A DNA stretch of 64,000 nucleotides from positions 347,894 to 411,893 of the forward strand of contig VCMS01000025.1 of the NCBI GenBank assembly GCA_022539475.1, written 5' to 3'. A program made the translations under genes and the position numbers. This DNA is from Gracilaria domingensis (Eukaryota; Rhodophyta; Florideophyceae; Gracilariales; Gracilariaceae). Positions 1-24,006 of this stretch are shown one piece after another (position 1 is the stretch's first letter; the number at the start of each line of letters is the position of its first letter). The notes below the pieces were generated by a model that was given only the letters and a program-made list of their open reading frames with translations, was not told where the DNA came from and made no database searches.

Positions 1-853
1 AACTTCCTATGCATTTGCGTCAGCGATAGGCCCAGGCCATAGTAGAAGTTTCCCGCGAACATGTCCATGACAGATCTCTCGGTCTTGGTGAACGCAAAAT
101 ATAACTGCTTCATCAACTCCTGACTTCTGTTCTCTGCTCGGTCTTATGTACTGCCCACTTGGTAACTGAACTACCTGGTTCATTATTACCTTCCATGTCA
201 ACCACTCCGCGGCTCTGCGGTTTTGGCACCACGGTCAATTACATTCCTGTTTAGGCCGGGAAGGTAAAAGGAATTGAATTGTTCTCCTCCAATGGAGTAA
301 GACTTGGCTTCCTCGATGGTCGCAATCCACGCTTCACCCCAGATGAAGCGGCGTACTCCGTAACGCGGCTTTGTTATGCCCAAACTTTCGTGGAATTCCC
401 TCCAACATTACTTCGTTATCCGGGATTGAACAGGTCAGTGATTCCCAATCCACTTTAAAGAAGGGGGAATGAGCATTTCTGGGGCTTACCTACTCGCTTC
501 CAGTGTTATCGTCATCGGGCTAGCTCGCTTTTCCGACGGGTCATCTGTGCCAAGATGAAACGCTGTAACCAATGGCGCAGAATATGGATGAAGGTGGCCG
601 TTCACCTGACGAAGCGCTGCAAACTTATTACCCAGTCAGCCGTACGGATGGTGTCATCCTCACTGAAGACATCGTGAGCACTATTCCGTTTGTTCCTCTT
701 CCTTCGGGTGTTAAAAGGAGGGTCTGTTAGGACAAGCTGTGCCTCACCCCATAAAATCTCACTCTGATTCACAAATGTTTCGTGTGTGTGCCTCAGGTCC
801 TTCATGTCACAGTTGTACGCTACAAAGTATGACTTTCTCGTCCCCTTCCACAC
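1..853 (-). pseudogene. Broken beta-class DNA methyltransferase domain (C-terminal half of the minus-strand gene; runs off the window)
   Basis: Reading the minus strand downstream of 853 gives methyltransferase motifs spread over several frames. One frame (602-853) carries LVLTDPPFNTRR, the DPPF catalytic motif IV of amino-methylating DNA methyltransferases. A second frame near 560-605 gives NGHLH, and a third then gives IFCAIGYSVSSWH, matching the strand that follows motif IV. Near 10-120 another frame reads ELMKQLYFAFT and then VMDMFAGNFYYGLGLSL, an FxGxF-type AdoMet-binding motif I preceded by the usual RPSxE-like stretch. Motif IV before motif I is the permuted beta-class order (N6-adenine or N4-cytosine). 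At least four frame changes and stops separate these blocks, so this copy looks inactivated. Introns could explain some breaks, but I saw no convincing GT-AG pairs. The substrate base is inferred only from the class. The gene continues past position 1. Confidence 0.65.
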
Positions 854-2255
854 CCTTGTCCATATTCATTCGAAGGAGAGTGGATATCCCCTTCATGGGC
901 GGCTCAATACCAGTCTTTTGGAAGTTGTAACTGGCAACCCGAGATTCATGCTCCGCAAGATTCACCGGCTTCTCGAAGTAGTCGCTATCGGAGCTCACGA
1001 GGTTCATATACTCTCGACGAGGTGGGGGTGGGGCAGACTTGGTCGAAGAAGGTTCGGCCTTACCGGAAGTTTTAGGGGTTTTCGTCAGTTCAATATCAGG
1101 TTTCGCCTGAATGCCGACATGGAACCCTGCCGCATGACGCATATCCTGTATCGGTTTCCATAGCAACTCCGAAAACTTCTGAAATCGAGCAGGCAACTCA
1201 CCGGAGTCAGAACCAGATACGGTATCCATCCGTATCCCCGAAAACTCTATCCAGTTCCTCATCTGATCAACCCGTAAGCTATAGAGGCTATCGTGGGTGC
1301 ATATGGTTTCGAGATCTGTCAAAAACTCCTTAGCCAGTATTCGCAGGTTTGTATCGCATTCATCACTCAAGATCTCCACCGATCCACTAGTACTGCTCTG
1401 TGGCACATCCTGTGTGTTGAATCGAGTACTCTGGCTCGGCGGGGCATAACCATACTCCCGTGTCTCTAGCGCTGTATACTTCAACGTCTGCATATTCATG
1501 TAAATGTATGGTTTCACCATGTGCTCAACGTTCGTGTATCCAAGATGAGCCGCAAAACAACTCCATGCCCATACGACCTCACTGATAGCGAATCCCAGTC
1601 GATCACAGTTGTCTTTGGAGAACGACGCAAAAGTGGGTATGTACACAGATGGTGCATGGTTCACTTTTCGTTTCTTTTTCGGTTGTTTCTTCTTCATCAT
1701 TCTGATGTTGTCGTTCTCTCCCATTATGTGGTCGAGGTATGATAAGTATATAATGACCTCAAATGGGTTCACAGCTGTTGGTGGGATGAACACTGTCGTC
1801 TTTAGAACCTGCTTTCTCCTGGTCATGAAATAACCAACCAGGCATCGCACCGGTAGGTATATACCCATATCCATAGAGAGAAGGAAAAAATCGCGCAGTC
1901 TCTGGTCCTCATCACCGTCCTTCTTGTCAAGAAGCTTCGTCACAAGATATCGTTGCTCCACAGGTTTGTTATTCACAACACTCTTTCGCAGCTGTTGCAG
2001 TGTCAAGTTCTGCAGGTTCTTGGAGTTAGAGGCCTCCTCAAACATCTTCCTTGCCTCCGGAATATCCTTATAGTTCTCGGCGCAGAACTCTATTAGCCCT
2101 CTAAACCCCACGTCCCGTGGCCGATCAGGGCCTCCATCGCTGTTTGCCAAAGCATCGCGAAGAACCAAGAAAAGTCTGACATATGCATGGAACGCCGGAG
2201 GCGGAGCACTCATGTCGATAGGATGTATCTCCTCTCCATCATCGGTGGAATCCAT
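807..2255 (-). CDS. N-terminal region of the methyltransferase gene: nuclear protein of unknown fold, 482 codons
   Basis: Intact ORF with a true ATG at 2253-2255 and a TGA at 807-809. Around residues 187-197 lies a strong basic nuclear localisation signal (KKKQPKKKRKV). The middle (about 200-400) is hydrophobic/aromatic and predicted globular; residues 400-450 are low-complexity Pro/Ser. I recognise no domain here. The last 15 codons overlap the frame that carries the methyltransferase DPPF motif (602-853), so this ORF was probably the N-terminal half of one long protein, now separated by a +1 frame change near 830-850. The ATTTAAAGGCTCGCC box just upstream is shared in mirror image with the divergent plus-strand gene at 3196, suggesting co-expression. 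Confidence 0.6.
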   Translation of the reverse strand: MDSTDDGEEIHPIDMSAPPPAFHAYVRLFLVLRDALANSDGGPDRPRDVGFRGLIEFCAENYKDIPEARKMFEEASNSKNLQNLTLQQLRKSVVNNKPVEQRYLVTKLLDKKDGDEDQRLRDFFLLSMDMGIYLPVRCLVGYFMTRRKQVLKTTVFIPPTAVNPFEVIIYLSYLDHIMGENDNIRMMKKKQPKKKRKVNHAPSVYIPTFASFSKDNCDRLGFAISEVVWAWSCFAAHLGYTNVEHMVKPYIYMNMQTLKYTALETREYGYAPPSQSTRFNTQDVPQSSTSGSVEILSDECDTNLRILAKEFLTDLETICTHDSLYSLRVDQMRNWIEFSGIRMDTVSGSDSGELPARFQKFSELLWKPIQDMRHAAGFHVGIQAKPDIELTKTPKTSGKAEPSSTKSAPPPPRREYMNLVSSDSDYFEKPVNLAEHESRVASYNFQKTGIEPPMKGISTLLRMNMDKGVEGDEKVILCSVQL

Positions 2256-3195
2256 CGCTTCAGCGTAAACAACGGAGGCGAGCCTTTAAATGGCGACTTA
2301 CGCTGGGCACCCTCGCTTTCGGCAGCTCCTCCCACCGAACTGCCAGTCTCGTCCGTGTCCGTGTCCGCTCGGTGCAATAGCGTCGCGTGTCGGCCACGCC
2401 GCGATTCGGAGCTATTGCAAAGGTCGCGTATTGTGCAAAAAGTCGCGGATGAAGTGGGTGTGAAGCGCTAGTTTTCTCTAGTTCGATATATGTGCACGGC
2501 GTGTACAGCGAAATCACTGCCGGAAGTGCCGGAAGGAGTGTTTTGGGAGGTCTCCGGAGGGTGCCAGAATGCGGCCAGAACGTGCCCGCGGGCGGGGGGT
2601 GTCGGTCGTGTTAGGGTAGGTACCCTAACACGACCGGACCCCCCCGCCCGCGGGCACGTTTTGGGCGATTTTTTGAAAAATGTGCGATTTTATGCCCGCG
2701 GGCTGGGGGGTCCGGTCGTGTTAATGTACCTACCCTAACACGACCGACCCCCCCCCCCGCCCGCGGGCACGTTCTGGCCACATTCCGGCGCCTTCCTGGG
2801 ACCTCCCAAAACACGTCGCCCTGCAGTGATTTCGCTACACCCGGCCGCCGGTACGTTTGCCCCGCAGTCCACGTGTAGTGGCGGGAGTAGGCTGTACATG
2901 AAAGTGAATGAGTGTACTCTTGACTACTATGCAAAGCATTTGAAGAGCATGATTAGAGAGCGCGACCATTGCTCGCGTGAGTCATCATTGCGCGAACTCC
3001 ACGACTCTAAAGCGTACAATCAGCGTACGAGCGGCCACGGACAGGACACGGATGAGAATGGCAGTGCGCTGGGAGGAGCTGCCGAAAGCGAGGGTGCCCA
3101 GCGTAAGTCGCCATTTAAAGGCTGGCCTCCGTTCTTGTATCGTCCAGAGCGAGCGTATTGTTGATATACACCTTTCACTGCAATAGCTGTTCAAC
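2256..3195. promoter_or_regulatory. Mirror-image bidirectional promoter region between the divergent gene pair
   Basis: The outer ends of this intergenic stretch are inverted copies of each other: about 2283-2371 (minus orientation) matches about 3040-3123 (plus orientation). Shared features are a GGAGCTGCCGAAAGCGAGGG block and the core ATTTAAAGGCT(C/G)GCCTCCGTT, placed about 30 and 75 bp before the two start codons. The TTTAAA is a likely TATA-type element. The central part holds a second long inverted repeat (separate entry). No ORF here looks coding. The symmetry implies that both genes use the same regulatory input; that is inference. Confidence 0.6.
2510..2835. repeat. Large nested inverted repeat (two ~155-bp arms, each with its own palindrome)
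   Basis: The left arm (about 2510-2665) and right arm (about 2690-2835) are imperfect reverse complements around a short AT-rich centre near 2675. Shared blocks, in mirror order, are GAAATCACTGC, TGTTTTGGGAGGT, GGCCAGAACGTGCCCGCGGGC and CGGTCGTGTTAGGGTAGGTA. Within each arm the GTGTTAGGGTAGGTACCCTAACAC segment is itself palindromic and flanked by CCCGCGGGC, so the locus could extrude cruciforms. It may be the fused inverted termini of a mobile unit or a duplicated regulatory block; the sequence alone does not decide. Confidence 0.75.
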
Positions 3196-6100
3196 ATGAA
3201 GCCAACTCGTGTTCGAAAGCGTACGCAAAGCGTGACTCCTCGCACTCGGCGGAGCACTCGATCATTGCAAGGTGGAATGCGGGTTTCTCTGCAGATGGAT
3301 ATTAAGAATGAAGGAAAGGTGATAGTCGGGGAAGCGTTGTTGCATGGAATTGGATGTGTTCTACGCCGCGAGCTGCACGGGAAGCAATTGGACCCAGATC
3401 TTGTGGTGGTTCATAATATTCTCATCAGTCGAAGCGGTCAGACGTTCTACCCTTACCGCGCGGAGGGCCTGGATCTTCCACAATACATCCAGGATCTCCG
3501 GACGGCCGCTCCTTGGGATGAGAAAATGATGGAACCGGTGGCAGCCAGCATTCCGGCGTCCAAGCGGGGAACGGTGAGCGCTATGAGTGAGGTGATGACG
3601 CCGACAAGCCGCACGGAGCCAATTCGAAATTCATCAACACCGAGAGATAGCGCATCAGTAGCACCTCCGCGGGCAGGTCCGTCTTCTGTTACGAAGCGGT
3701 CTATGGAGACGAGAGCATTCCCAGCTACGAAGCAGACAGGTCAAACAAAGTCTACCTCCGCTACGAAGCCCACTGCGTCGAAAAGGGCATCTTCTGCGAT
3801 GAATCAGACCGTCGACACAAGGGGAACTTCTGCGTCGAAACAGACGGTTCAGCACCGAAAGGCTGTGCAAGAAGAGGAAGATGAGATCATAAAAGGTCCC
3901 CTTCCAGACGCGGATGCGCAATCCGCGCAAGGAGCTGGTCCATCTGTACCCCAAACTGCACCAGAAACTGCGGAGCAGCAGGACGATGACGTTGTGCTTC
4001 TATCCGCAAGAATGGCACGTTCAAGTGTTTCTGGCGAGCGGTCTGGAACACAAGGGACACCCACTCGGAGCAAGACGTACAGACAAATTCGTCAGAAGGT
4101 ACCAAAGGTGAACCTCAATCAGTACCGGATGGTTGTTGTTACTGTTGACATCACTCTGGTGGACACTCCGCCCAATTTACTCCGTGGAGTAAGTAAACGC
4201 CACGTTGAAGCCCTTGTGAAGAGTATGGAGGAGCGGGGGATATTGCAGTCGATGGGTTCTCCAGTGGTGGCCTTACAAGATGCTACTACGGGAGAGAGGG
4301 ATACTGACAAGGGACGCCTAACGAAGAAGTGCTTCATTGTAGATGGTTTGCATCGTCCGAAAGCTATACAATATTTGGCAGCGACTGGTGCACCGAAGCG
4401 GAAGCGATTAGCTACGTTTTGGCGTTGCAATCTGCTGATACGAAGAGATGGGAGGCCCATTGGGATGAAGGAATTGTTGTGTGTTGCTTCGTACCTCAAT
4501 GAGTCGACGAGTACCATGCGAAGGATGATGTTTAGAGACAAGATACACTCTATAGTTAGTGTGGTCGCCATTCTAATTGAAGATGTTGAGGAGGTGACGC
4601 CGGCAGACGTGGATCCTGCAGAAGTCACAGAAGTGTTGAAGGAGAGCCAACTGATTGGGACTGTGCAAGAGCGTCAGTATCTTAGATATGCCAATGTCGC
4701 CCTGCAACTCATGTCTCGTGAGGGAATGCTGGCCCATTTCGAGGATATATGTGAGAGTGTGAGTGACATAGGTCTCACACGTCTGTCCCATACTCCGCTA
4801 TATGTTTTGGATGCCGAGGAGTTTTCCTTCATTCTTGATTGTCTTCAGATGTTTCTATTGAAGGGCAAGTCGACGAAGACAAAGCAATGGAAAAGCTTTG
4901 AGGAGGTTCGAGGTTTCTTTTATGATAGAGCAGTGTCTCTGTTCCGCGCGGCTAGAGCAGTGAGGAATGAACTGAACGAGGAAGAGTCCATGGAAGCGTT
5001 CCTGAAACGCAAAGTCAGTCTTTCTGCTCCATCGAATGAAGATGATGTTGAAGACCCAGACAACAACGCAGTTGTGTATCAATTCCTTTTGGGACAAGTT
5101 GTGAACTTCAACACATTGCCGCGTGTTCGGAGCAGGACGAACTCAATTAGAACTGCCACGACTTCCGTTCAGAATCGATTGCGGACGATGCTCAAGGTAA
5201 TTCCGCCCCCCGCACCAGTGAAGCAGTCCGTGACGAGGAGGAGGACTCCCACTGCTGCTGCTGCAGCATCTGCCAGTGAAGAAGGGGAGCCGCGAAGAAG
5301 CGCACGAGAACGGGCGCAGGTGAGTTATAGGGAAATTGAGTACGGCCGAAATCGAGGTGCCATAGAAGTCCTGGATAGCTCTGAAGAAGAACAGTGGGCT
5401 CCGCCGAAGAAGAAACGGAGAAAGACTTTCACGAAACAGATGAGATCTACTCTGAACAGCATGACACCGGATGACCTGATGTCTCAACTAAATAAACATG
5501 TGCTGAGACGAAGGTCGATGAAGGTTCAGTTCGTGGCATTGGGAGAGAGAGCGAATGCAGAGAACGCAGGCAGTTCTGCATTCGTGGATGACGAAGAGCT
5601 TCTTTCTGTGACGGTTCCACGGGTTGTCACCGTCGAGAAAGATGCTGCGCCAGACGATCAGCAAGAGACAGGTGGGGGGTCATTTGATGACGAGTTACCT
5701 ACAGCTCTTCCGGAATCTGAGGAGCACGGACTTGTTCGAAGAGACCCATATGATGGCCCACCGAACCAATCATGGTGCGGGTATGTCAGGCTGAGACCGC
5801 AGGGATGGCAAGGGAAGAACGTAATTGAGCACAAGGACCCCTGGCTCAGAGTCAATCACTTGCCGAAGGCACATAGGTCGGAGCTGCTAAGTGTCTCGAA
5901 TCTCAGAGATGTACACCATCTTGTCTTTTGGCACGCTGCAAGGACTGAACACCGCCTACGGGCGGAGACATTTGGTATGCAGTATCCTCGTACTCGGCCG
6001 ACAGGTATGGATGATGAAGAGGTGCTGTGGGTTGCTGCGAAGGAGCATGACGAATTTGGGCAAATGTTCTTCGCCCGAATGCAAGCTGAGCTAAGGCAGA

Positions 6101-7086
6101 ATGGATATTGCGTGCTTGATGGCTTTGCGACGGATAATGGTGTCCCTAAATGGGAGGAGTTGGAAGACGTTCGGGAGTTCGGAGATGTGTCGGGGAAGTT
6201 GGTGGACTTCTTCGAGAATGAGTATGGAGCGATGCCGGATATACGGAAAGGGGAGGAACAGAAGTCGTTTGTTCAAATAATCAACGATGATGAAGGATGG
6301 AAGGACGGTAGCGATGGACCATTTGAGAGGAGAGTGATGTCGACACGTTGGGGTACGGTGGAGAAGCCGGAGGATGATGAGGAGCTCAGGTGGGTTGTAA
6401 GGTCGCGTGCTTTACTTGATGTTCGAATGGGTACAATTGCTGCGGCTTTGGGACTATGGGACAATGAAAGGGAAGCTGTGAAGATGTACACTCCGAGAAC
6501 TGGTGGTCGATTTCTGGGGACGACGAGAAAGTGCAAGCGCCAGACGCTGCACACCGACTTCAGTGGTCTGGTTAGGAAGGAAACAATGAATACTGGTAAC
6601 CCCGGATACTTTGTAATGGCCTCTGGGAAAGAGGGCTTCCCTCTCTGGGTGAGCGCTGGAAGCCATCAACTGGTGGGGATGAACAACCAACAGTTGCGAG
6701 TGATGTCGGAGGTGTATCCGGCGAAGAAGATAATCATCCCACCGTACTCTGTATTCGTGGGCCGTGGTGATGTGACACATGCTGGAGCAAGTAGGAAGGA
6801 CAAGGTGGATAGGCCCGAGTCTATGGATTTGCTGGTTAGATACCACATGTACATGGTACCAGAGGGTTACGCACAACCTAATGCTGTTCATCAAGTGCAG
6901 GATTTCCGACCCACGTTTGTCAATGGTGACGAGGAGGAGGAGGCGGAGGATGAACTGTTGTCCGATAAGGAGGGTGGGGCGGTTGACATGGAAGAAGACC
7001 AAGTGGTCGTGGAGATTGGTGTGGAAGCGGAGACCGGTAGAACTGAAGTGCTCGAGAGTAGTAGTGATGACGATTTGCCAATATGA
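3196..7086 (+). CDS. ParB/DGQHR-like domain fused to a 2-oxoglutarate/Fe(II) dioxygenase-like domain (1296 aa)
   Basis: One uninterrupted ORF starting at ATG 3196. Residues 1-300 are a short N-terminal globular segment followed by Ser/Thr/Lys-rich repeats. Residues ~305-400 look like a ParB/Srx-type fold: VDITLVDTPPNLLRG, then HVEALVKSMEERGILQ, then CFIVDGLHRPKAIQYL, which matches the DGxHR motif of ParB and DGQHR proteins. Residues ~400-660 are mostly helical. A basic PKKKRRK near 737 is a nuclear signal. The C-terminal ~400 residues resemble a double-stranded beta-helix dioxygenase: HTDFSGL (HxD, ~1117), GDVTHAGAS (distal His, ~1192) and an Arg in LLVRYHMY (~1213), the spacing used by Fe(II)/2OG enzymes including the nucleic-acid-modifying TET/JBP group. 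Residues 1240-1296 are acidic. It is divergent from a DNA methyltransferase gene. The domain assignments are by eye; DNA-base oxidation is inference. Confidence 0.7.
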   Translation: MKPTRVRKRTQSVTPRTRRSTRSLQGGMRVSLQMDIKNEGKVIVGEALLHGIGCVLRRELHGKQLDPDLVVVHNILISRSGQTFYPYRAEGLDLPQYIQDLRTAAPWDEKMMEPVAASIPASKRGTVSAMSEVMTPTSRTEPIRNSSTPRDSASVAPPRAGPSSVTKRSMETRAFPATKQTGQTKSTSATKPTASKRASSAMNQTVDTRGTSASKQTVQHRKAVQEEEDEIIKGPLPDADAQSAQGAGPSVPQTAPETAEQQDDDVVLLSARMARSSVSGERSGTQGTPTRSKTYRQIRQKVPKVNLNQYRMVVVTVDITLVDTPPNLLRGVSKRHVEALVKSMEERGILQSMGSPVVALQDATTGERDTDKGRLTKKCFIVDGLHRPKAIQYLAATGAPKRKRLATFWRCNLLIRRDGRPIGMKELLCVASYLNESTSTMRRMMFRDKIHSIVSVVAILIEDVEEVTPADVDPAEVTEVLKESQLIGTVQERQYLRYANVALQLMSREGMLAHFEDICESVSDIGLTRLSHTPLYVLDAEEFSFILDCLQMFLLKGKSTKTKQWKSFEEVRGFFYDRAVSLFRAARAVRNELNEEESMEAFLKRKVSLSAPSNEDDVEDPDNNAVVYQFLLGQVVNFNTLPRVRSRTNSIRTATTSVQNRLRTMLKVIPPPAPVKQSVTRRRTPTAAAAASASEEGEPRRSARERAQVSYREIEYGRNRGAIEVLDSSEEEQWAPPKKKRRKTFTKQMRSTLNSMTPDDLMSQLNKHVLRRRSMKVQFVALGERANAENAGSSAFVDDEELLSVTVPRVVTVEKDAAPDDQQETGGGSFDDELPTALPESEEHGLVRRDPYDGPPNQSWCGYVRLRPQGWQGKNVIEHKDPWLRVNHLPKAHRSELLSVSNLRDVHHLVFWHAARTEHRLRAETFGMQYPRTRPTGMDDEEVLWVAAKEHDEFGQMFFARMQAELRQNGYCVLDGFATDNGVPKWEELEDVREFGDVSGKLVDFFENEYGAMPDIRKGEEQKSFVQIINDDEGWKDGSDGPFERRVMSTRWGTVEKPEDDEELRWVVRSRALLDVRMGTIAAALGLWDNEREAVKMYTPRTGGRFLGTTRKCKRQTLHTDFSGLVRKETMNTGNPGYFVMASGKEGFPLWVSAGSHQLVGMNNQQLRVMSEVYPAKKIIIPPYSVFVGRGDVTHAGASRKDKVDRPESMDLLVRYHMYMVPEGYAQPNAVHQVQDFRPTFVNGDEEEEAEDELLSDKEGGAVDMEEDQVVVEIGVEAETGRTEVLESSSDDDLPI

Positions 7087-7376: not shown

Positions 7377-8243
7377 ATGAAACTGAGAAGTCTATGCAGT
7401 TCCTGTCTATGCGGTACTTGTGGCAGTATGGTGACTGTATCAGGAAAAATGGCAGAGGAACAGAGAGACTTTACGGAAATTTCACCTAATACCTTGTCTA
7501 AGTTCATATATGCCAATGGTTACGGTATAGTAAGTTCCGTTGAGGGAACGTTTAGAAGAGAAGGAGAGTCAATTCCAGAAGAAGTTGTGAAGTGCATGAA
7601 GTTCATTGACGAACGTGTTGGTTTCGGACTTGTCACAGGGGGTGATGTGGGCGATGTGGAGGGGAAAATGGAAGGACTCGGAGACTATAAGTTTGGTGTC
7701 TCGGCGAATCATGGAGCTTTCCTCCGTTTCTCTGACGAGAGAGAAATTAAGGCTGCATTCAATGATCACACCCTTGACCACACTGTTGACGGACTACTGT
7801 TCCTGGCAAGGGATTTGAATAGGAGGCATGGTACTTTGAATGATGATGAGAAGGGGTTCGTGGAGACCAGAAGTGATAGTGGCCTTCCCAATTTCGTGTA
7901 CAAAAAACTGTGGCAGTGGAGAGAAGAAGTGAATTCTGCTATTGGGGACCTGTTGCAGAAGATGGATGCGTTTGTTATCTATCCCGGCGATAAAAGTTGC
8001 GAAATTGTGGACAAGCGATACACAAAAGGAAGCGGAGGAGCAAATCTTGTGGATAATGAACCGAGATTTATTGATACGGATGACGTCGTGACGTTCAGAA
8101 GTGCTTTGAGCGACGGGCCTTTGCTTGAGGTAGGCGTGTACGGCGTTCACGTCAAAGAAGATTGTATCCCGGGTGGAGTACACAACCTGTTCGAAAGCGT
8201 GGAGGATATACACTCGACAATTATGCTGGTGGCTCTGTTGTAA
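7377..8243 (+). CDS. HAD-family phosphatase paralogue lacking catalytic residues (pseudoenzyme or decaying copy, 288 aa)
   Basis: ORF from ATG 7377, with a TTTTAAAA box just upstream. It aligns by eye along its whole length with the minus-strand HAD protein at 8341-9249 (EVVKCMKFIDERVGFGLVTG; RSDSGLPNFVYKKL; SCEIVDKRYTKGSGGANLV). The catalytic motif I, SDIDGTL in the partner, reads SSVEGTF here, so both aspartates are gone; motif II TGRD has become TGGD; motif IV FGNASNDGPL has become FRSALSDGPL. It also lacks the partner's Cys-rich tail. An open frame of this length with so many active-site changes points to a pseudoenzyme or a recently relaxed duplicate. It is convergent with its paralogue, with under 100 bp between the stops. 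Substrate unknown. Confidence 0.7.
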   Translation: MKLRSLCSSCLCGTCGSMVTVSGKMAEEQRDFTEISPNTLSKFIYANGYGIVSSVEGTFRREGESIPEEVVKCMKFIDERVGFGLVTGGDVGDVEGKMEGLGDYKFGVSANHGAFLRFSDEREIKAAFNDHTLDHTVDGLLFLARDLNRRHGTLNDDEKGFVETRSDSGLPNFVYKKLWQWREEVNSAIGDLLQKMDAFVIYPGDKSCEIVDKRYTKGSGGANLVDNEPRFIDTDDVVTFRSALSDGPLLEVGVYGVHVKEDCIPGGVHNLFESVEDIHSTIMLVALL

Positions 8244-8340: not shown

Positions 8341-9249
8341 CTAAGTATTACAGGCATCGTAGCACTTGAAACAAATTCCAGGAGCATTTCTAAACCATTG
8401 ACACTTGCATTTTGTGTACCCGTACAGTTCTGCCACCCTTCTGATGGTCTCATGCACGTCCTCCACCCCATCAACAAGATATGTTACGGCTGCTGGATGG
8501 TCGTCTCCCTTCACATGAACTGCCAGGGTTGCCATTTCATATAGAGGGCCATCATTGGAAGCATTCCCGAAAGCAACGACTAAATGTGTGTCGAACTGGG
8601 GGTCGTTTTCAACCAAGGCTAGCGCCCCACTATTTTTCGTGAAACGAATGTCCCCTATGTCACAGTTTTCATCCTGAGGGTACGCAACCAGGTTCGGAAA
8701 GGATTTCAACACTTTTGAAATACCGGAGTTAACTTCTGTTTTCCACTTCGACAGTCCATTGTACGTGAAGTTAGGGAGTCCACTGTCTTTCCTAGTGCTC
8801 ACAACTGCTTGTTGACGCTCTTCGTGAAGTCCGTGCGATTCATTTAAGGAGAGTGCAAGTCTCTCAAGTTCGGCTGCACATTTTTCGTAGCCTTCCCTGT
8901 CAGGGTCCTGATCAATTTCGGTACCATTGGATAATCTCACCCGTTCGCCTTGGTTTCCAGAGATGCCAAAAGTGTAGCCACCCAGGTGCTCCATGAAACT
9001 CTTGGCATCCTCTATATCTCGCCCAGTAGCAATTCCGAAACCAACACGTGCATTGATGTACTTCATGCATTTGACTGTTTCGGCAGGAATGTTCTTCCTA
9101 GCTCTTTTCAGAGTACCGTCAATATCACTAATCACGGCGTAGCCATTTTCGAATATTTCGTTAGCCAGCTGCTGAGGAGTTACTTCTTGGGCTCTAACTT
9201 CTGAGTTATACATGTTTTGAAAGCTTTCGAAAGGGTTCGTTTTGCACAT
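8341..9249 (-). CDS. HAD-superfamily phosphatase, trehalose/sucrose-phosphatase-like (302 aa)
   Basis: The start is placed at the ATG at 9247-9249; the frame upstream opens only with GTG. Motif I is YAVISDIDGTLKRA (nucleophile and acid/base Asp, ~42/44), motif II GIATGRD, and motif IV FGNASNDGPLYEMA, the full set of a Mg-dependent HAD phosphohydrolase. The order and the GYTFGISGNQGER segment fit the class IIB cap group that includes trehalose-6-phosphate, sucrose-phosphate and Cof-type phosphatases. The tail ends in a Cys-rich stretch (CKCQWFRNAPGICFKCYDAC) not normally seen in these enzymes, perhaps metal-binding or disulphide-forming. No clear targeting peptide. The exact sugar phosphate cannot be named from the sequence. 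Its plus-strand paralogue at 7377 has lost the catalytic motifs. Confidence 0.75.
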   Translation of the reverse strand: MCKTNPFESFQNMYNSEVRAQEVTPQQLANEIFENGYAVISDIDGTLKRARKNIPAETVKCMKYINARVGFGIATGRDIEDAKSFMEHLGGYTFGISGNQGERVRLSNGTEIDQDPDREGYEKCAAELERLALSLNESHGLHEERQQAVVSTRKDSGLPNFTYNGLSKWKTEVNSGISKVLKSFPNLVAYPQDENCDIGDIRFTKNSGALALVENDPQFDTHLVVAFGNASNDGPLYEMATLAVHVKGDDHPAAVTYLVDGVEDVHETIRRVAELYGYTKCKCQWFRNAPGICFKCYDACNT

Positions 9250-9839
9250 GAGTGTGGGTATACGAATGAGAAGGATGTGATTGATGTTCACAAGGTGTTT
9301 CGTAGTATAAAAAGAGTCTAAGAACGACCATATACATGTATTGTAGTACTGTTGTAAAACGTTACTACGACGAGAAGCTTTTGCATCGATTTGCTGTAAA
9401 GAAAGGATGATTTAGTCATAAATTATATGTACGGGTTCAAGTGGGTAAAGAAAACTATGAATATCTTCACCATGAGCTTAGAAATCAAGAAGAGTAAAAC
9501 AACCTCCATTAGAGGTTGAAACCCATAAAATGTTTACCTTACTTTATACGGGTGCCCCAAGTATTGCAAAGGCTTAGTTCTTCAGAAATATCACAATTTT
9601 GTACTTGTTTTGTTACTAGTATCGTGCACTTTAATGATGTGGAATGACCCTTTTCCATCTAGCAAAAACTTAGCCAGGTATTAGTGATAAGGGATGTAGG
9701 ATGTAAAAGGGCAAATTTGAACCACAGAAAGACGAACAATAAAAGTAATGTAATAGGAACAGGTCATTTGGATAAAGTAACTTTTATGTTTAACTATCTG
9801 TAAAAGGTTTACAACACCGAAAAGTCATGTGTTCTAACC
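9250..9839. other. Intergenic, no gene seen
   Basis: AT-leaning sequence with a possible TATA element (GTATAAAAAG near 9305) for the minus-strand HAD gene. I found no coding-like frame or RNA structure. Confidence 0.5.
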
Positions 9840-11109: not shown

Positions 11110-11281
11110 CTATAGTTTCACAACAGGCGGTCCAACGGTAAGGTTCGCCACAAAATGACCATCCATTACATCTATATGCAGCCACTCCGCTCCAGCCTCT
11201 TCCATTGCACTCGGTTCATCTGAAAGGCGAGCAAAGTCTGAAGCCAAAATTGATGGCGCTATAACTAAACGATAATCCCTA
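11110..11281 (-). pseudogene. Fragment of ribulose-phosphate 3-epimerase (N-terminal ~50 residues)
   Basis: The minus-strand frame reads [14 protein letters not shown], then [18 protein letters not shown], then [10 protein letters not shown], followed by a stop at 11110-11112. This is the first beta-alpha unit and second strand of ribulose-phosphate 3-epimerase, including the metal-ligand HIDVMDG motif. The rest of the enzyme (the HLM and GxGGQ regions) was not found downstream before the next gene, nor an ATG upstream. It may be a relic of a duplication, or a lone exon whose neighbours are lost. Too short to function alone. Confidence 0.7.
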
Positions 11282-11829
11282 CTGTTTTTGGACTGTCATC
11301 TGATGGTATCAGATCCAATATATCCCCAATGGACGCTGAGAGGGAGGATGAACTACTCTACGCGCTATCATTGTTACCCATCCGGTGTCGAGTGGTGACA
11401 TATTCTTTTTTTGTCACAACCCACACAGGATGTGACGGAAGAAGAAGATGCCCTCAGTGGAGACAGAGGGTGAGCTACTCTAAGTAGAATCACTAGTCCC
11501 TAGCTTGCCTCCACTGGCAATATCTTCCTGTTTTGCTACAACCATCGAGTGAGGTTGTGGCGGAAGAGAAAAATATTGCGGGTCGAGGCGAGGTGGGTGG
11601 GGACTATGTGAGCGCGAAAGAGGGGACAGAGGGGTGGCGCTTAAATAGTGGAAGGTGCGGAGGTGTACAGTAGATGTTTTGGCGAGAAATGGGATGAGGG
11701 AAACAGGGACAATCATGGTGCTGGATATAGCCCGTGTGGTTGGACAGTGGGGGTGGACAGCACAGTTTAGCTAGATTGCACTGTATCGCAGCGGAAACTT
11801 CGATCCAACTACTACTTCTTCTTCTGAAG
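11282..11829. other. Intergenic, low-complexity GA-rich sequence
   Basis: No gene seen. Short similar purine-rich segments occur around 11390-11480 and 11510-11600. A CTTAAATAG element near 11640 could serve the downstream plus-strand gene. Confidence 0.4.
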
Positions 11830-12759
11830 ATGTCGAACGGATACGTGAAGGATGAGGAGCTGTGGGCGCTGTTGGAGGGGAAGGAGGTACCGCCGACGCC
11901 GTCACCAAAGCGGGAAGAGGACGGGATTACGGTGGCTGGTCGGATGTCGCAGAAGAACGAAGTGGCCGATGAAGGAAAGAAGTGTGAGGCGAGGAGAGGG
12001 GATGGTGATGAGGTGGAGAAGGGTGTAGAATTGGAGGTGGAGGGGGTCGCAATGGAGAGAAGGGGTGCGGTGCATCTGAGTCAGTTAGAGGTTGGAGACC
12101 AGATAGAGAGTGGGGGCGGAGAGGGTGACAGGGAGATGCGGTTTGTGGGGGAGATGAAGGCGAGGGTGGGGATGTTAGGGTTGGTGATGAAGGAGCAACT
12201 GGACGATGGAGTTGTGGAGATTGTAACGGAAATGGGCGGTGTGGTGCTGAGTGGTGGTGGTAGTGCTGTTTCGGTTGAGGCGATTTCGAGCCTGCGGAAT
12301 TCGTTGTCGGTATTGGGAGTGGAGATCAGAGATCATGTGTATGGGATAGTGGAGTGTGCGAGAAGGGAGGTTGGAAAGTTGCGGAAGGAGAATAGGGTTC
12401 TGAACGAGAGATTGGACATGCTGGAGAAGGAGGTGAAGCAGCTGGGCAAGAGGAAAAGATTGGTGGAAGAGGAGACGGTGAAAGGAGGTGTGGAGGGAAA
12501 GACGGAGAAGGGAAGTGTGGGAAGGGTGGTGGTGCAGAAGGGGTTCCCTGTGACACCGAAGACAAAGGGTGGTGGGGTTGGGGATGGGAAGAGCCGTCAG
12601 AAGAAGAGGCGTAAGGAGATGAAGAAGGTGGTGGAGGAGGTGCCGCGGGAGGGAGTCGGAGCTCCGGTGGTGACTGGGTTTAGAAGTACGGCGGAGGTAG
12701 CGCGGACTGCGAAGGGGATTCTGAGGGGACAGGAGGAGAGAAGGATGGGAGGGATTTGA
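11830..12759 (+). CDS. Coiled-coil, basic-tailed protein of unknown function (309 aa)
   Basis: The start is taken at ATG 11830 (MSNGYVKDEELWALLEG); the frame is open further upstream but without another plausible ATG. Composition is rich in Glu, Gly and Val, with very strong GA-rich codon bias. Residues ~190-240 form a heptad-like coiled coil (KLRKENRVLNERLDMLEKEV), followed by basic stretches (GKRKR, RQKKRRKEMKK) that could be nuclear signals. I recognise no domain. The opposite-strand frame over the same DNA is a shadow of the purine bias. Confidence 0.45.
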   Translation: MSNGYVKDEELWALLEGKEVPPTPSPKREEDGITVAGRMSQKNEVADEGKKCEARRGDGDEVEKGVELEVEGVAMERRGAVHLSQLEVGDQIESGGGEGDREMRFVGEMKARVGMLGLVMKEQLDDGVVEIVTEMGGVVLSGGGSAVSVEAISSLRNSLSVLGVEIRDHVYGIVECARREVGKLRKENRVLNERLDMLEKEVKQLGKRKRLVEEETVKGGVEGKTEKGSVGRVVVQKGFPVTPKTKGGGVGDGKSRQKKRRKEMKKVVEEVPREGVGAPVVTGFRSTAEVARTAKGILRGQEERRMGGI

Positions 12760-13237
12760 AGCCGTTTTGGGGCGAGGCGGGTATACGAGAAGGAGGAGAG
12801 TTGTCCACCTGACTTCTACAAAATGACGTTTGCGGAGACGGAGAGAGAGGATGCGAACGCGTGATGGGCGAGAAATGGGTAAATAGCGGGGATGGTGTGG
12901 ACTGGGAAGAAGTGATGGGATGATTGAGGTGGGATGAGTTGCGATTAACATTGCAACATGGGAGAAAATGGAAACGCAAACTAGCACGAGTGCAGTTTTG
13001 AGAGAGGGTCGCGGAAAAGAGTGAATGGGGTGGTGCGGCGAAGTAGAACCTCTACAAAAACTAGGGGACCCAAGAACTAAACTGCGCCAAATGGAATTTA
13101 TTATTCCAAAATTTCTTAATTTTTTGAGTGCCAGCCTCTGCCACCCCCTCGCGCTCCCCAAAGCCCCAAAACTAGCTTAGTTTCCAAAGCGAACAGACTA
13201 TATTCCACTTTGCAGAAAACGGACGATAGACAATTAA
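12760..13237. other. Spacer between coiled-coil gene and DIRS-like element
   Basis: GA-rich, then AT-rich near 13090-13120. It probably contains the 5' end of the retroelement, but I could not find a left copy of its 3' repeats. Confidence 0.4.
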
Positions 13238-14368
13238 GTGTCTCAGACGTTCTCCGATGTTGCACAACTTGCAGATGATCAGCTCGAAACCCTTATTATG
13301 GCAGCTCAAGCATCTTCTAAAGCCAACATTGACAATCCGGCTAACCGCAGTGACGAACGCATTGCTTTGCTAACGATTCAGATTTATCTTCAAAACAAAT
13401 TGTACAACGATACGACCTGTGAGCAAGCTTTGCAGAAAATATTACAATATTCTGTGAACGAACTACAGCACCTTTCTGAATCCAGCCCGGACCTTCTGCT
13501 GCATCTTATGCAGAAAAGCAAGCAATATGATCCCACTCTTCCTGATTTCAATCCGGAAGCGTCAGCAAAGGATCTTTTGCTCACAGTACTGTATTGGAAA
13601 ATCTATGCCCCACAGCATCAGCACACCGCATCTCCTGCAGCTGTTCTTGCAGCAGACTCTCTGCCACCCAACATAAACAATGCAGATCAAACCACTCTGA
13701 ACAAACTTACCGCGCTCGAAAATTACCTTGCGAACTCCGAAGACCATCAAACCCCTCCTCACAAGAAGTACCGACTCAAAATCGGTGGAATACCAATTGT
13801 AGACAAAGACGGGAAGGACACAAACAATCTGCCCGTCAATCTTGGAGAATATCCCGGGAAAGCATCGTCCCTCCCAACTCTGACTCTCATAGGGATTCTG
13901 GGAGGGCAAATTTTGCAAGCGCTTCTTCGAAGAGGTGTGAATTTGGTGCTTTCTATTGCGAAGATCGAATGGACTCGCGGCGCCAACAACGAAGTAATGG
14001 CATCAGAGGCAGAGGTATGCACACTGGCAAGAGTCCTACACTTCGCGCTGCTTCAGTATCCTTCAATGCAGGAAGCATTAGAGAATTGTATCTGGATGGA
14101 GGTCGCCCTGCGACGACTCTACGCCCTCATATTCGTCGAATCCTCAATTCGAACACGAAATGCCTCTCGAGCCCAAGCTTGGCGCGTGGAAATTCTGATT
14201 CTGGAAGCCTATCCCTCGACAACATCTCTTCTTCCAGACATAGAAAATCGGCTCAACAGCCAGTTCGCGTCCCGGGTGAAAACCATAAACGCCTTCAAAT
14301 CGACGAGAAACAAAAGCCACGGGCAGCGATCGCCAAACCGAAGACCACCAAATCCACATCAAAACTAA
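13238..14368 (+). CDS. Gag-like ORF of the DIRS-like element (about 376 aa)
   Basis: Long open frame beginning after a TAA; its first codon is GTG, so the true start is uncertain. The product is helical and Leu/Ala-rich, ends in a basic Arg/Pro/Asn tail and has no zinc knuckle. The gag role is inferred from its position before the reverse transcriptase. Overlapping frames in the same stretch are shadows. Confidence 0.5.
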   Translation: MSQTFSDVAQLADDQLETLIMAAQASSKANIDNPANRSDERIALLTIQIYLQNKLYNDTTCEQALQKILQYSVNELQHLSESSPDLLLHLMQKSKQYDPTLPDFNPEASAKDLLLTVLYWKIYAPQHQHTASPAAVLAADSLPPNINNADQTTLNKLTALENYLANSEDHQTPPHKKYRLKIGGIPIVDKDGKDTNNLPVNLGEYPGKASSLPTLTLIGILGGQILQALLRRGVNLVLSIAKIEWTRGANNEVMASEAEVCTLARVLHFALLQYPSMQEALENCIWMEVALRRLYALIFVESSIRTRNASRAQAWRVEILILEAYPSTTSLLPDIENRLNSQFASRVKTINAFKSTRNKSHGQRSPNRRPPNPHQN

Positions 14369-14399
14369 GATATAAGCAGCCTCGTTTAGAGAAAAGATC

Positions 14400-16491
14400 T
14401 CGCACAATCCCCCTCCCCAACCTCTCTTCCGTCACAGGCAGTACCGAAAATGTCATAGGCTCGATGAGAGACAACCTGAATGTCCTGTACAGCAGCCCTT
14501 GCCCGCCCTCCAGAGACAACTTACCCTCCGCTTCCAAGCGTGTCTCTCTCTCTCTCAGTGCAAGAGTTACATGCTGGCTTAAATATCTCGAAAAAGAAGT
14601 TAGACGAAGCTAGTCTAGAAACAATGAAGCGTCTCAACCGGCTACCGAACACTGTAATATTGCACCATCCTGGAAAAGCATCTTCAGAGATTTTCTTTCT
14701 TCCACGAAAAATCTGGGCATCGAAAGAGGATCTTTCACAACACTAGTCGCCAAGCGCATCGACCTTCCAGATGCCAGCGAATCTCGAGGCAGTACCTCAC
14801 GGTCAGCACTGCTTCCCATGTTACAAGAGGCTATATTCTCGTGGAAGGAATTTCTCCGTCTCACCGAAGCGCGTGAAAAGCCGCTGGAGAACACCAGAAG
14901 AGACAGAGATCATGGCTGTGAAAACGAATACAGTTCTGTGCTTCTTAAGGCACACAAGGCGAACATGTTAGCTTGGTCCGTGGTTGACAAAGAAGACCCA
15001 ACATACCGATCCCTGGCTGACACCCTAACCATGTTCTCCTTTGCAGTCACAAAAGATGCAGAACGAGACAGGTTAATCAGCTGGCCAAGAGTACAGAATG
15101 AAATTCTACCAGAGCCGCCATACACCGAGCTCCCCTGTCCGGACATGTTCTGGTGGTACGAAATGGGAGCTGGAAATCTTCGCTCCTTCTACTTCGATAT
15201 TCAATACATGTTCCATAACATACGGCTCCCGACAGAAATGGCAAAGATCTTCCCTCTACAAGCCCTACCCATCTCCAAGCTTCTAGCGGAACTCAAAAGA
15301 CTTCTTTCTAAAGTCATAATGCTTTGCAGCAACGAATCTACCCTGTTGCGTCCACTGCAACAAACTCAACGCATGGGATACAAATGGGCGGTTCACATCG
15401 CCCATAACATAGCAAACTCCATAATCAATCATGCCTTCAACCTCTTTCGGCACCACCCCCACTGCGAACGAGACCCTCAACTCCTACATCTCTCAAGAGG
15501 CCCAAACATCACCTACTACAACACGGGAGACGCAATGCGGCTGCATATAATCGACGACATTAACTTCATCTTCAAAGATTGGGAGGCATACGAAATTCGC
15601 ACCTTTCAACGGATCTGCTATTCAAGATTCCACTCCCACGAGCTCCCGATAAAGGCGAGTAAGTCCTCCCCTCTCGGCTCTCTTTGTAGCACTATCATGC
15701 CATTCATCGGATGTAAAATTGAGCTTCAGCAAAGAACCGCTTTTCGTGATCCTCAAAAGTCGAATGCCATTCCGCAAAGGATTCTATCTATTTCCAACCC
15801 TATTGATCTTACTTCGAAAACGGCAGGAGCCCTCACCAACAAACTGGCATGGGCTGCCTTAGGGAACCGGCCTCTCCTCGCCGTCTTACTTAATACTTAC
15901 CGCTTCATCGAAGCATGCAAACAAGGTCGCTCGTCTGCCGTACTCTAAACGCGCGCTCATGCCAAACTTACAAGGCTTCCACAGCTTCTCCCGCTCTCCT
16001 TCGTGAACATGAACACTCCATTCACCCACATTGTTCTTTGTTTTGACGCCTTGCTCGACGCCGGCCCCCTCATATATCACGAATCAGACCATGCAGAGCT
16101 CTCGCAGTTCGCGCTATGCTTGTCTAAAGAATCACCTGCAATGCAGTCCGTTCTGGTTCAGCGGTTCGTACAGCAGCGACCTTGGAAAACTGCCTTTGTC
16201 CACAGATGGGACAAACCAGATCACATCAATATTCTGGAAGCCACGACAGCGTATCTAAGCCTGGAATGGCTAGCCTCGCGGAAAGCCCAGCACTGTCGGG
16301 TGATTATTTTGGCAAACTCAATGGTTACAATCCAGGCCCTCAAAAAAGAGAGATCATCCAGCCCGGCCCTCGCGCTACCATGTCGACGATTCGGTGCGGT
16401 CTCTCTCACGCACGACCTTCACCCGCTTTTCTTCTATATACCATCCCCCTTAAATCCGGCAGACTCCTCATCCCGCACATATCTCACTTAG
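14400..16491 (+). pseudogene. Reverse transcriptase-RNase H of the DIRS-like element, two in-frame stops
   Basis: The frame with codon starts at 14614, 14818 and 16003 is continuous apart from TAG at 14611-14613 and TAA at 15946-15948. RT motif A appears as SFYFDIQYMFHNIRLP, motif B as MGYKWAVHIAHNIANS, and motif C as HIIDDINFIF (catalytic DD). RNase H follows: FTHIVLCFDALLDAG, then HINILEATTAYLSLEWLA, NSMVTIQALKKERSSS and YIPSPLNPADSSSR, the pattern typical of DIRS/PAT RNase H. The catalytic motifs survive but the stops would prevent a full-length enzyme unless suppressed. The 5' boundary of this ORF is not clear. Confidence 0.7.
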
Positions 16492-16699
16492 AAAAGCACA
16501 GTGAGGCAGGCACTGCATTAACAACCTGCACGAAAATGACTGTGCACCTTACACTCTCCGGCCAGCTTTTCGCCAAGATTCAGAAGGAGCGAAACAAACT
16601 TGGTCCAGGCAGTCGCACAGTCGTCACACCTTCCGGCGAATCTTTTTACAGGATAAGCAAGGCTCGAACAGCCTCTCGAGTTTCCCAGATCGCCGCCTG

Positions 16700-17797
16700 T
16701 CGGACTGACACGAGGTCTAAACACGAGACTGAGAAACTCCGCCACTCGGACCGCCCGAGTCAGCACATTGATCAGTCTGACAGCTCGTCATCAAAGCACG
16801 GTGTTCCACGATCCAAATCCTCCATTGGTAAGGAAAGGATCTGCAGAAAGCCAGTCAATCTCCAGTTTTCCTTCGTGTCCTACTTGCGGAGGCACCCCCT
16901 GTTAAGAAACACATTGAAGCCAGTGACACGCAAGAGATACAACGACGGGCTGCACAGCTTTCAAAAAGTGCTTCCGACGATCCCCCCGACTATCACAGAA
17001 TTGGACGAGAAACTTTTGCACTTTATTGAGGAGTCCTTCAACAATTGCGAATCGAGAGGTGTAGAGCAAAAAATGTCCAACCTGGTCTGTGCTATACATA
17101 TAATCGTGCCAGCCACCAAGAAAAATCTTTGTCTTTCAACAAGGGCGTTAGACGGCTGGGACAACGCTAACCCATCCAAGTCCTCCATACCGCTCACAAA
17201 GCAGTTCGCGTACGCTATGGCGGGCTGGCTTTTAGCCCACAATAAATTCAAGGCCGCTGTCGCTTTTCTAGTATCATGGGGCGGCTACTTACGTGCCAGA
17301 GAAGTCTTGAACTTGACATGGGAGCTCGTCGCTCTACCGGGTGATCCTAGAGTTTCAACCTTTAATCAGAAAATGCAGGCGTGTGCTTCAAGGATAGAAA
17401 AACCGGACCATTTCAATTCGTAGCGTTGACCAAACCAGCACCAATCACCGTTCTCAAAGTTCTCCACAGCAGGTTTTACAATTCTGGAGCTGGATCCCAA
17501 AACTTTTTTCGTATGTCCCATACCACTTATGCTAAGAAAATTCAACAGGTCTGTCGAGAGCTCGGTATTGAAATTTACGGGATATCAACTCATTCCGCCC
17601 GAATTAGAGGCGTGCTACACGACTATATTAATGGAAAAACTGCAGAAACGATTGCCATAAATGGAAGATGTAAATCATTGTTCTCTCTCCGGGATTACCT
17701 CACAAATGAACGAGCCGGGATTATAAAGCTAAAAGTCAACGCCAAATCTAAACTATTACCAGAGAGATACGACAATCTAAATGCAATCCGCTCGTGA
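16700..17797 (+). pseudogene. Tyrosine recombinase of the DIRS-like element, frameshifted
   Basis: The N-terminal SAM-like part is in the frame ending at 17423 (TRKRYNDGLHSFQKVLP), followed by the first catalytic Arg in GGYLRAREVLNLTW. Near 17383 the frame changes and continues as CFKDRKTGPFQFVALTKP, then GISTHSARIRGVLHDY (His/Arg catalytic pair) and SLFSLRDYL (candidate nucleophile Tyr). The break falls inside the conserved beta-hairpin, so it is a real lesion or a read error, not a domain boundary. Family role: integration of a circular DNA intermediate. Confidence 0.7.
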
Positions 17798-19269: not shown

Positions 19270-20016
19270 TTAAGATATCTGAGATTTCTCGTTGTAGTCC
19301 AGTACGTGTAGTACGGCTACTTGTTTGTGGTCAGTGGTTGCGATGTAGAGGTATAATAGGTCGTTGGGTCTTGACCCGAGAAAGGAGGTAGCGTTATCGG
19401 AGACAATCGTGCGGGGATAGCCGAAGGGTGTGACGATCTCCGTTCTAATAAAGTTGACTACGTCGACTGCAGTAGATGTCCGAGTTGCCACTGCGATCGG
19501 CCAACCCGTGAGGTGCTCGACCCAAATGAGCAAGATTCGGTTTCTGTTCCTCGTCACCCTGAGGGGTCCGGCAAAATCAATTGAAAACGTGTGGAAGATA
19601 TCCGTCAGTGGGGCTCGTTGCCCCGCTCGGTAAGCAAGAAAAGACCCCATGAACTGGCGTCCATCACAACTCTTGACGTAGGTTGTGACATCAGAGCGAA
19701 TATTGGGGCACCAGAATCGATCAATGACGTGCGTTCTGGTCGCCCTGACATCCCAGTGTCCCACATCGTCATGAAATGTTTTCAAGAGTTTACGCCTTTC
19801 ATTGACGTTAGGAAGGAGTCGTAACCCGGACCCCATTCTGCGATACAACTGCCCATTCGATACCATGAACTTCTTAGAATTCCTTTTGATCACCCCTCTG
19901 AGGCTCGAGTTGGGCTCATCGACCGGAAGGTCACTCAAATATCGACCAATATTTGCATAATAAGGTTCGAGGCCTGAGAAAGCTCCGCATGTAGGGGAAG
20001 AAACAGTAGTCGCCAC
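19270..20016 (-). pseudogene. Truncated integrase of the gypsy element
   Basis: Contains a degraded H2C2 zinc finger (FHDDVGHWDV ... YVKSCDGRQF, where the last Cys is replaced) and the start of the catalytic core (FSIDFAGPL and IVSDNATSFLGS, the first two Asp of D,D-35-E). After the second Asp the sequence diverges to an unrelated tail and stops, so the Glu and the C-terminal domain are missing. It is in a different frame from the RT ORF, with a frameshift around 19975-20035. Confidence 0.8.
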
Positions 20017-23719: not shown

Positions 23720-24006
23720 TACAGGGGAAATCCCTGAGAGAGGGCCAGTTCGAGGTTGCTTGGGCAGAGGCTCCCCTTCCGCGTCTCTTTTTGCGGTAGT
23801 AACGGGATCTTCATCATCTGAAGGTCAGCAATCACAACTGAGATTTGGTTCCCACCTGTGTTCTGGGAACCTCGTTTCTCACTCAGGAACTTCTCTTTCT
23901 CTGGTTCGGACTTCATATCTTCAAATGCAACTTTTCGGACAACATCGGTGTTATTATTTCTCCAGCACGTAGCTGTAGAGTGACCTAACTTGCCACAATT
24001 ACCACA

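Follow-up and report, generated by a model that had tools for sequence, protein, structure and literature searches.

The divergent genes and the region between them

We analyzed a 64-kb stretch of the genome of the red alga Gracilaria domingensis (contig region C25:347894-411893, referred to here as the window; other contigs are likewise given as C with a number, and fetched loci as L with a number), and we searched the 77.9-Mb assembly of 680 contigs for its relatives. At its left end, the window carries two divergent genes. The plus-strand gene encodes a protein with a ParB-like region and an oxygenase-like C-terminal part, and the minus-strand gene belongs to a group of fusions between a DNA methylase and a SET domain. 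We argue below that this pair is probably carried as accessory cargo by a giant Plavaka-type DNA transposon. Both genes are present as reading frames, namely, a plus-strand open reading frame (ORF) at 3196-7086 (1,296 amino acids [aa]) and a minus-strand ORF at 2255-807 (482 aa). The features of the pair are as follows.

3196-7086, plus strand: gene for the ParB-like/oxygenase-like protein, 1,296 aa, an intact ORF
4120-5250, plus strand: ParB-like domain region, residues ~309 to 685, with DGLHR at 383 to 387, from matches to ParB-like PHROG families
6308-6862, plus strand: putative 2-oxoglutarate (2OG) oxygenase core (H1119, D1121, H1195, and R1215), with GT..AG ends, absent from two annotated paralogous proteins
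810-2255, minus strand: N-terminal 482 codons of the DNA methylase-SET gene (coding part of the ORF at 807-2255), with a basic signal at ~1662-1694
3-865, minus strand: frameshifted rest of the DNA methylase-SET gene from a three-frame reading, with LTDPPF in the frame at 602-865 and MDMFAG in the frame at 3-143
2268-2360, no strand: left arm of inverted repeat I1 (partner 3044-3136), in the mirror-image promoter region
3044-3136, no strand: right arm of the same inverted repeat I1
2500-2843, no strand: palindrome between the divergent genes, a candidate binding site, with repeated CGTGTTAGGGTA and GCCCGCGGGC units

The region between the genes is symmetrical. Its outer arms (2268-2360 and 3044-3136) are 93 nucleotides (nt) long and 94% complementary, and they flank the palindrome at 2500-2843, in agreement with an earlier note on this DNA that had described one mirror-image promoter for the pair. 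As single-stranded DNA, the palindrome folds with a z score of -22 relative to its own shuffles. Because the arms of the inverted repeats between the genes diverge by 6 to 17%, an artefact of read folding seems unlikely. The palindrome is a possible protein binding site. Palindrome-like sequence was found in 31 fetched loci, and one of these (L046 2219-2500, on C296) lies outside any listed gene pair; because of this locus, the palindrome could be an address of the element or merely a dispersed repeat. It may thus be a dispersed palindromic repeat and not part of the promoter. The C296 relative sits immediately past the right tip of another copy of the element.

The methylase-SET and ParB-like/oxygenase-like proteins

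In the window, the reading frame of the methylase gene is broken several times over positions 1 to ~830, and its SET part falls outside the window. The frame at 602-865 gives a weak Pfam match. Methylase motifs IV (LTDPPF) and I (MDMFAG) follow one another in this order on the minus strand, as had been noted earlier, but they are not within the minus-strand ORF, lying instead beyond its stop in other frames. Both motifs in this order appeared in 0 of 20,000 Markov resamples, and singly the LTDPPF and MDMFAG patterns appeared in 17 and 95 of them, respectively, with patterns that were composed after the motifs had been seen. The earlier assignment of the gene to the DNA methyltransferases is borne out by an intact paralogue on C465 (L038:3954-7088; protein P0003, 1,045 aa), which matches both PF01555 (N6_N4_Mtase; 56.9 bits against a cut-off of 26.7, E = 3.8e-15) and PF00856 (SET; 32.0 bits against a cut-off of 22.4, E = 1.7e-7, profile positions 1 to 105 of 105). 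A 350-codon open frame in a second copy (L039) also matches both families. Because other copies are intact and have both domains, we attribute the frameshifts in the window to decay or assembly error of one copy. All four matches of the intact paralogue among solved structures are adenine methylases (DpnA twice, CcrM, and MboIIA), over ~70 residues around motif I, and DPPF in motif IV points to adenine methylation. The minus-strand protein would methylate DNA bases, probably at adenine-N6, and its SET domain may methylate lysines on histones or other proteins in the vicinity. The searches made for the minus-strand ORF and its 740-aa read-through found no protein relatives outside Gracilaria, and those made for the N-terminal ~480 aa of the methylase-SET protein found no relatives. 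The PKKKRKV sequence at residue 192 corresponds to the nuclear signal that the earlier note had assigned to the minus-strand protein; the one assigned to the plus-strand protein corresponds to a basic KKKRR stretch at residue 738.

A ParB-like domain in the plus-strand protein is supported, though weakly. The DGxHR motif reported earlier is present as DGLHR at residue 383, and among fetched copies D383 is retained in 29 of 29, G384 in 25 of 29, H386 in 27 of 29, and R387 in 25 of 29. For this and all other residue counts, the window copy (L001) served as the reference and was excluded, 30 of 36 places were fetched, and the copies are mutually related and not independent. The best ParB-like PHROG match (E = 6.5e-4) was obtained with a 152-aa piece (residues ~309 to 460) and covers residues 315 to 351, ahead of DGLHR; the whole 4120-5250 stretch gave a best E value of 2.2e-3 to these families. 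Four of the six PHROG families listed for residues ~309 to 460 are ParB-like, and the three that span DGLHR do so at E values of 0.03 to 0.3. None of seven control sequences (one reversed and six shuffled) matched a ParB family, and the best control E value was 0.051. The PHROG matches of the proposed ParB-like domain have no counterpart in Pfam, NCBIfam, or PADLOC, and against solved structures the region returned ribosomal L7/L12 and other chance matches and no ParB. No relatives of the plus-strand protein outside Gracilaria were found among the best 7,993 candidates (those sharing the most words), and a search for phage, plasmid, and viral-contig relatives found none.

Our reading of the C-terminal part of the plus-strand protein as 2OG oxygenase-like is made at the level of motifs. 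The ORF contains HTD at 1119, THAG at 1194, and VRYH at 1214, so the HxD...H...R residues on which a dioxygenase had been proposed are indeed there. The bare motif also occurs in 79% of shuffles, however, and is for that reason worthless as evidence on its own; a stricter oxygenase pattern made by hand does not match the actual sequence. The order KMYTP...QTLHTD...PLWV..GSH...HAG...R is what we take to be expected of a 2OG oxygenase. The frame of the 555-nt core is open in 1 of 5,000 resamples, and the core is present in 29 other fetched copies, of which L026 lacks 201 nt and five more have small gaps or an insertion. Among the copies with letters at these positions, the putative ligands are kept in 29 of 29 (H1119), 28 of 29 (D1121, with one E), 25 of 28 (H1195), and 27 of 28 (R1215).

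Two annotated G. domingensis proteins are near-copies of the plus-strand protein, with 92% and 87% identity to it across 79% of the query stretch; both lack residues 1038 to 1222. In the window, the corresponding segment has GT..AG ends and a length of 555 nt, a multiple of three, so it was probably predicted as an intron. We do not regard it as a true intron, because its frame is open and the fetched copies carry it. The domain searches made gave no backing to the automatic names of the near-copies (mediator subunit 15 and SasA, a cell-wall-anchored protein), which do not suit the plus-strand gene.

Genomic copies and the probable carrier transposon

All copy counts given here are lower bounds, as only the best candidates were scored. 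The plus-strand protein has at least 37 matches in the genome (36 places that are 81 to 100% identical, plus one fragment), the minus-strand ORF at least 88 at 86 to 100% identity, and the SET part at least 150. For twelve matches of the minus-strand ORF, the open frame is 1,055 codons long, and nine of these are stop-free within the match. The lack of an annotated partner had appeared to count against the pair, an argument that the 88 or more methylase copies overturn. A search for the same pair elsewhere, which the earlier note had recommended, found a divergent partner within 6 kb for 11 of the 36 listed plus-gene copies and a further divergent pair at C465, which is not among the 36 places, all in this one genome. 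The absence of the pair elsewhere, by which that note would have had its reading refuted, was thus not observed. The plus-strand protein is 100% identical between the window (3196-7086) and C108:197246-201133, and the flanks of the same elements are 95 to 97% identical, pointing to gene conversion in the recent past or to a mosaic copy.

The repeat that holds the pair extends well past the 1-7086 interval to which it had been assigned, since homology among copies continues to window position 13225. On the other side, the SET gene is followed by coiled-coil-like ORFs (by reading; no Pfam match) and then by a Plavaka transposase (PF18759; E = 1.2e-18 on C163 and 2.9e-18 on C328). Among the 150 listed SET copies, 25 have a convergent Plavaka gene 3 to 6 kb downstream, and 23 of these lie at a distance of 4,420 to 4,457 bp. 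Within 12 kb of the SET copies, Plavaka matches were downstream on the opposite strand in 27 cases, upstream on the opposite strand in 2, and on the same strand in 0, against a chance expectation of ~1.4 per class for 150 copies. Plavaka matches number at least 123 genome-wide. In addition, a dehydrogenase-like gene lies within 15 kb, on the expected side and strand, for 16 of the 88 listed methylase copies versus 1 for all other arrangements combined.

The element also has definable ends. Homology on the left side stops exactly at ...GCAAGAGACAGACG in C328, C359, and C192, where the flanks differ, and homology on the right side stops at ...TTTGCAGAACACAGACG in C359, C296, C163, and C108. The two ends form an inverted pair, with a short match consisting of CGTCTGT plus a partial remainder. 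The right end is also recognizable in the window:

13189-13225, no strand: right end of the transposon, in a degenerate form in the window (..CGGACG); the five copies compared, the window among them, lose homology to within a few bases of this point

The transposase side of the window copy falls outside the window. The only copy seen with both tips, C359:30920-53390 (22.5 kb), holds the Plavaka match between its tips, together with SET and dehydrogenase-like matches. Given the repeats, their collinearity, the inverted tips, and the linked transposase, we conclude that the pair is probably transposon cargo. The suggestion that it is selfish is thus supported, in the sense that it rides in a transposon. 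It is not self-contained, as had also been suggested; the methylase partner is a SET protein as well, and the element that holds the pair also has a transposase and additional genes.

EnSpm (PF02992) was considered as the carrier transposase and rejected, because only 4 pairs within 15 kb of the 88 methylase copies were found versus ~2 expected, in a count that used 68 of 146 EnSpm matches, chosen mostly on contigs in the other lists. EnSpm has at least 146 matches in the genome, 139 of them above the cut-off, and is not evidently linked to the Plavaka element. KDZ (PF18758) gave no genome match, but the control genomes likewise gave none. A first guess at the left tip was also discarded; it was absent from the window search and turned out to be a nested insertion point. 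Sequences with the same CGTCTGT tip begin inside the coiled-coil/transposase side in L037 (at 6739) and in L039, which suggests nested insertions of related elements.

The rest of the repeat within the window contains the following additional genes, some of which are metabolic and therefore unusual cargo for a DNA transposon.

8341-9291, minus strand: HAD hydrolase-like gene (PF08282, E = 3.2e-13), within the homology to L040
9975-10943, minus strand: dehydrogenase-like ORF, named by reading; at least 124 genome matches at 94 to 100%, no Pfam match
11116-11284, minus strand: piece of a ribulose-phosphate 3-epimerase gene, inverted; another copy has this gene as an open frame
11734-12759, plus strand: coiled-coil-like ORF close to the element's right end, with Pfam matches only below cut-offs

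The epimerase gene is found in the C296 copy (L040:4434-4997; PF00834, E = 3.9e-42). A diverged, inverted relative of the HAD hydrolase-like gene can be read at 7377-8243 on the plus strand, without a Pfam match. DIRS-type-like ORFs with a tyrosine recombinase (by reading; no Pfam support) occupy window positions 13238-17423, directly after the right tip, and a Gypsy-like retroelement with reverse transcriptase and RNase H matches and a weak aspartyl protease match lies at 19934-24795. On the reverse strand of L043 (C163:95001-103300), a Crypton-type tyrosine recombinase-like ORF (by reading) is located beyond the right tip of the copy on C163.

Interpretation, alternatives, and known systems

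We favor the interpretation that a giant (~22 kb), many-copy Plavaka-type DNA transposon carries the pair as accessory cargo and that the pair serves the element in marking itself, to escape silencing or to time transposition. We assign this interpretation a probability of roughly 0.72. Several results weigh against it. Among the matches listed, 125 of the 150 SET copies have no Plavaka gene at 3 to 6 kb, and most of the 123 or more Plavaka matches have no listed SET copy next to them. Only 11 of the 36 plus-gene copies have a listed divergent partner, 23 of the 37 plus-protein matches carry internal stops, and the methylase gene of the window copy is broken. The left tip was reached in only two of six fetched stretches (the other four stopped short and were uninformative), and no obvious direct repeat, which a target-site duplication of 2 to 3 bp would leave, was seen at C359, the sole copy examined with both tips. 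The oxygenase-like segment had no match in Pfam or NCBIfam, TET/JBP included; it matched only families of unknown function in PHROGs (E = 0.18 or worse) and yielded two chance-level matches among solved structures. Two single-sequence AlphaFold models, with mean predicted local distance difference test (pLDDT) values of 33 and 30, were unusable and lend the oxygenase no fold support. Of the dioxygenase proposed earlier, then, the residues stand, and neither a family nor a fold match accompanies them. Finally, the ratio of nonsynonymous to synonymous differences (pN/pS) of the core relative to the window copy is 0.62; since other parts of the protein range from 0.51 to 0.89, the core is not specially constrained. 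These values would fit cargo that some copies keep functional and that drifts in the rest.

The rival explanations differ in how much of the self-marking interpretation they would leave in place. The pair could ride in the transposon while the plus-strand protein merely binds DNA in the manner of ParB and has a C-terminal domain of structural function, so that only the methylase-SET protein modifies anything. A C-terminal domain with no family match, a bare motif that is common by chance, two annotated paralogous proteins that lack the core, and a core no more constrained than its neighbors would all suit this explanation, which we consider doubtful but the most serious of the alternatives. 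It accounts less readily for a segment whose frame stays open and which 29 other fetched copies carry, for the retention of the four putative ligands in most of these related copies, and for a motif order that we presume to be that of a 2OG oxygenase. Alternatively, both proteins could serve the mechanics of transposition (end binding, protection of excised DNA, or synapsis), with methylation flagging the element for its own transposase rather than countering silencing. The near-constant distance of the linked transposase and the palindromic repeats between the genes are compatible with such a role, yet the palindrome is internal and away from the tips, and a SET domain suggests the handling of protein rather than DNA. 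We regard this second possibility as unlikely. Least probable, in our judgment, and by a clear step, is that the repeat is not one transposon at all but derives from segmental duplications, or from a DNA virus that was endogenised together with its metabolic genes, with Plavaka elements inserting next to it by chance. Although the epimerase and HAD hydrolase are unusual cargo and no target-site duplication was seen at C359, a transposase at near-constant distance and in a single orientation, inverted tips at both ends, and flanks that differ beyond the tips all argue for one mobile unit.

If the pair is self-marking transposon cargo, its parts could work together as follows; the oxygenase activity, the targets, and the purpose are what we infer here. 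The methylase domain would mark bases of the element's own DNA, probably at adenine-N6, and the SET domain would mark lysine residues of histones or other proteins nearby. The ParB-like domain would provide a sequence address on the element, possibly via the palindrome between the genes, and the oxygenase-like part would oxidise a base or a chromatin protein at the bound site, thereby erasing or elaborating marks. Mirror-image promoters would yield both proteins together. By marking or unmarking its own copies, the element could evade host silencing or time its transposition. In its fullest form, this would be a self-directed chromatin program in which one protein writes both DNA-base (probably N6-methyladenine) and histone-lysine marks, a palindrome-loaded, ParB-guided oxygenase removes or elaborates a mark, and the element sets its epigenetic state independently of the host. 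We offer this complete version tentatively and think it rather improbable that every part of it holds.

Components of this arrangement have precedents. Like the beta-class adenine methylases DpnA, CcrM, and MboIIA, the Gracilaria methylase has a DPPF motif IV before an FAG motif I, but it is joined in one protein with a SET domain and with the ~480-aa N-terminal part without relatives in the searches made. In the red alga Bostrychia moritziana, Petroll et al. are said to have described, in 2025, giant EnSpm elements with several accessory genes; as far as a citing paper's mention of them goes, these share with our element a red-algal host, giant size, a related transposase clade, and accessory genes.

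Further parallels appear in two sources. Sola1-1_Ec32 of Ectocarpus, a large DNA transposon, encodes a ParB-like domain and an N4C/N6A methylase in one 1,104-aa protein that is suggested to bind and mark its own element, and green- and red-algal relatives are cited (PMC12477816). Our element likewise combines a putative ParB-like domain with a prokaryote-type DNA methylase on a large algal DNA transposon. In contrast to the single protein and Sola1 type of Sola1-1_Ec32, however, it has two divergent genes, with a methylase-SET protein, a ParB-oxygenase-like protein, and a Plavaka transposase. Fungal DNA transposons, including PlavakaB, encode TET/JBP dioxygenases (PMC12730594), and the likeness lies in the pairing of a Plavaka-type transposase with cargo that includes a putative DNA-acting 2OG oxygenase. 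The Gracilaria tips (CGTC/TGT..ACA/GACG) resemble the TGT..ACA termini given for PlavakaA (PMC12730594) and are unlike those of the TET-carrying PlavakaB (CATCA..TGATG). The Gracilaria oxygenase-like part further differs from the fungal TET/JBP elements in having no TET/JBP Pfam match, in being fused to a ParB-like domain, and in its red-algal host. Published precedents thus exist both for ParB-methylase genes on algal transposons and for TET/JBP oxygenases on fungal Plavaka elements. A search of a limited text collection, judged from titles and abstracts, found no report of a methylase-SET or ParB-oxygenase fusion in a transposon. These two fusions look like new variants, in a comparison that covers the Bostrychia moritziana elements via the citing paper only.

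Single epigenetic genes are already known from DNA transposons. If our interpretation is correct, the Gracilaria element would join the marking of bases and the marking of proteins in one selfish unit, and it directly raises the question of N6-methyladenine (6mA) and histone methylation on these repeats in Gracilaria.

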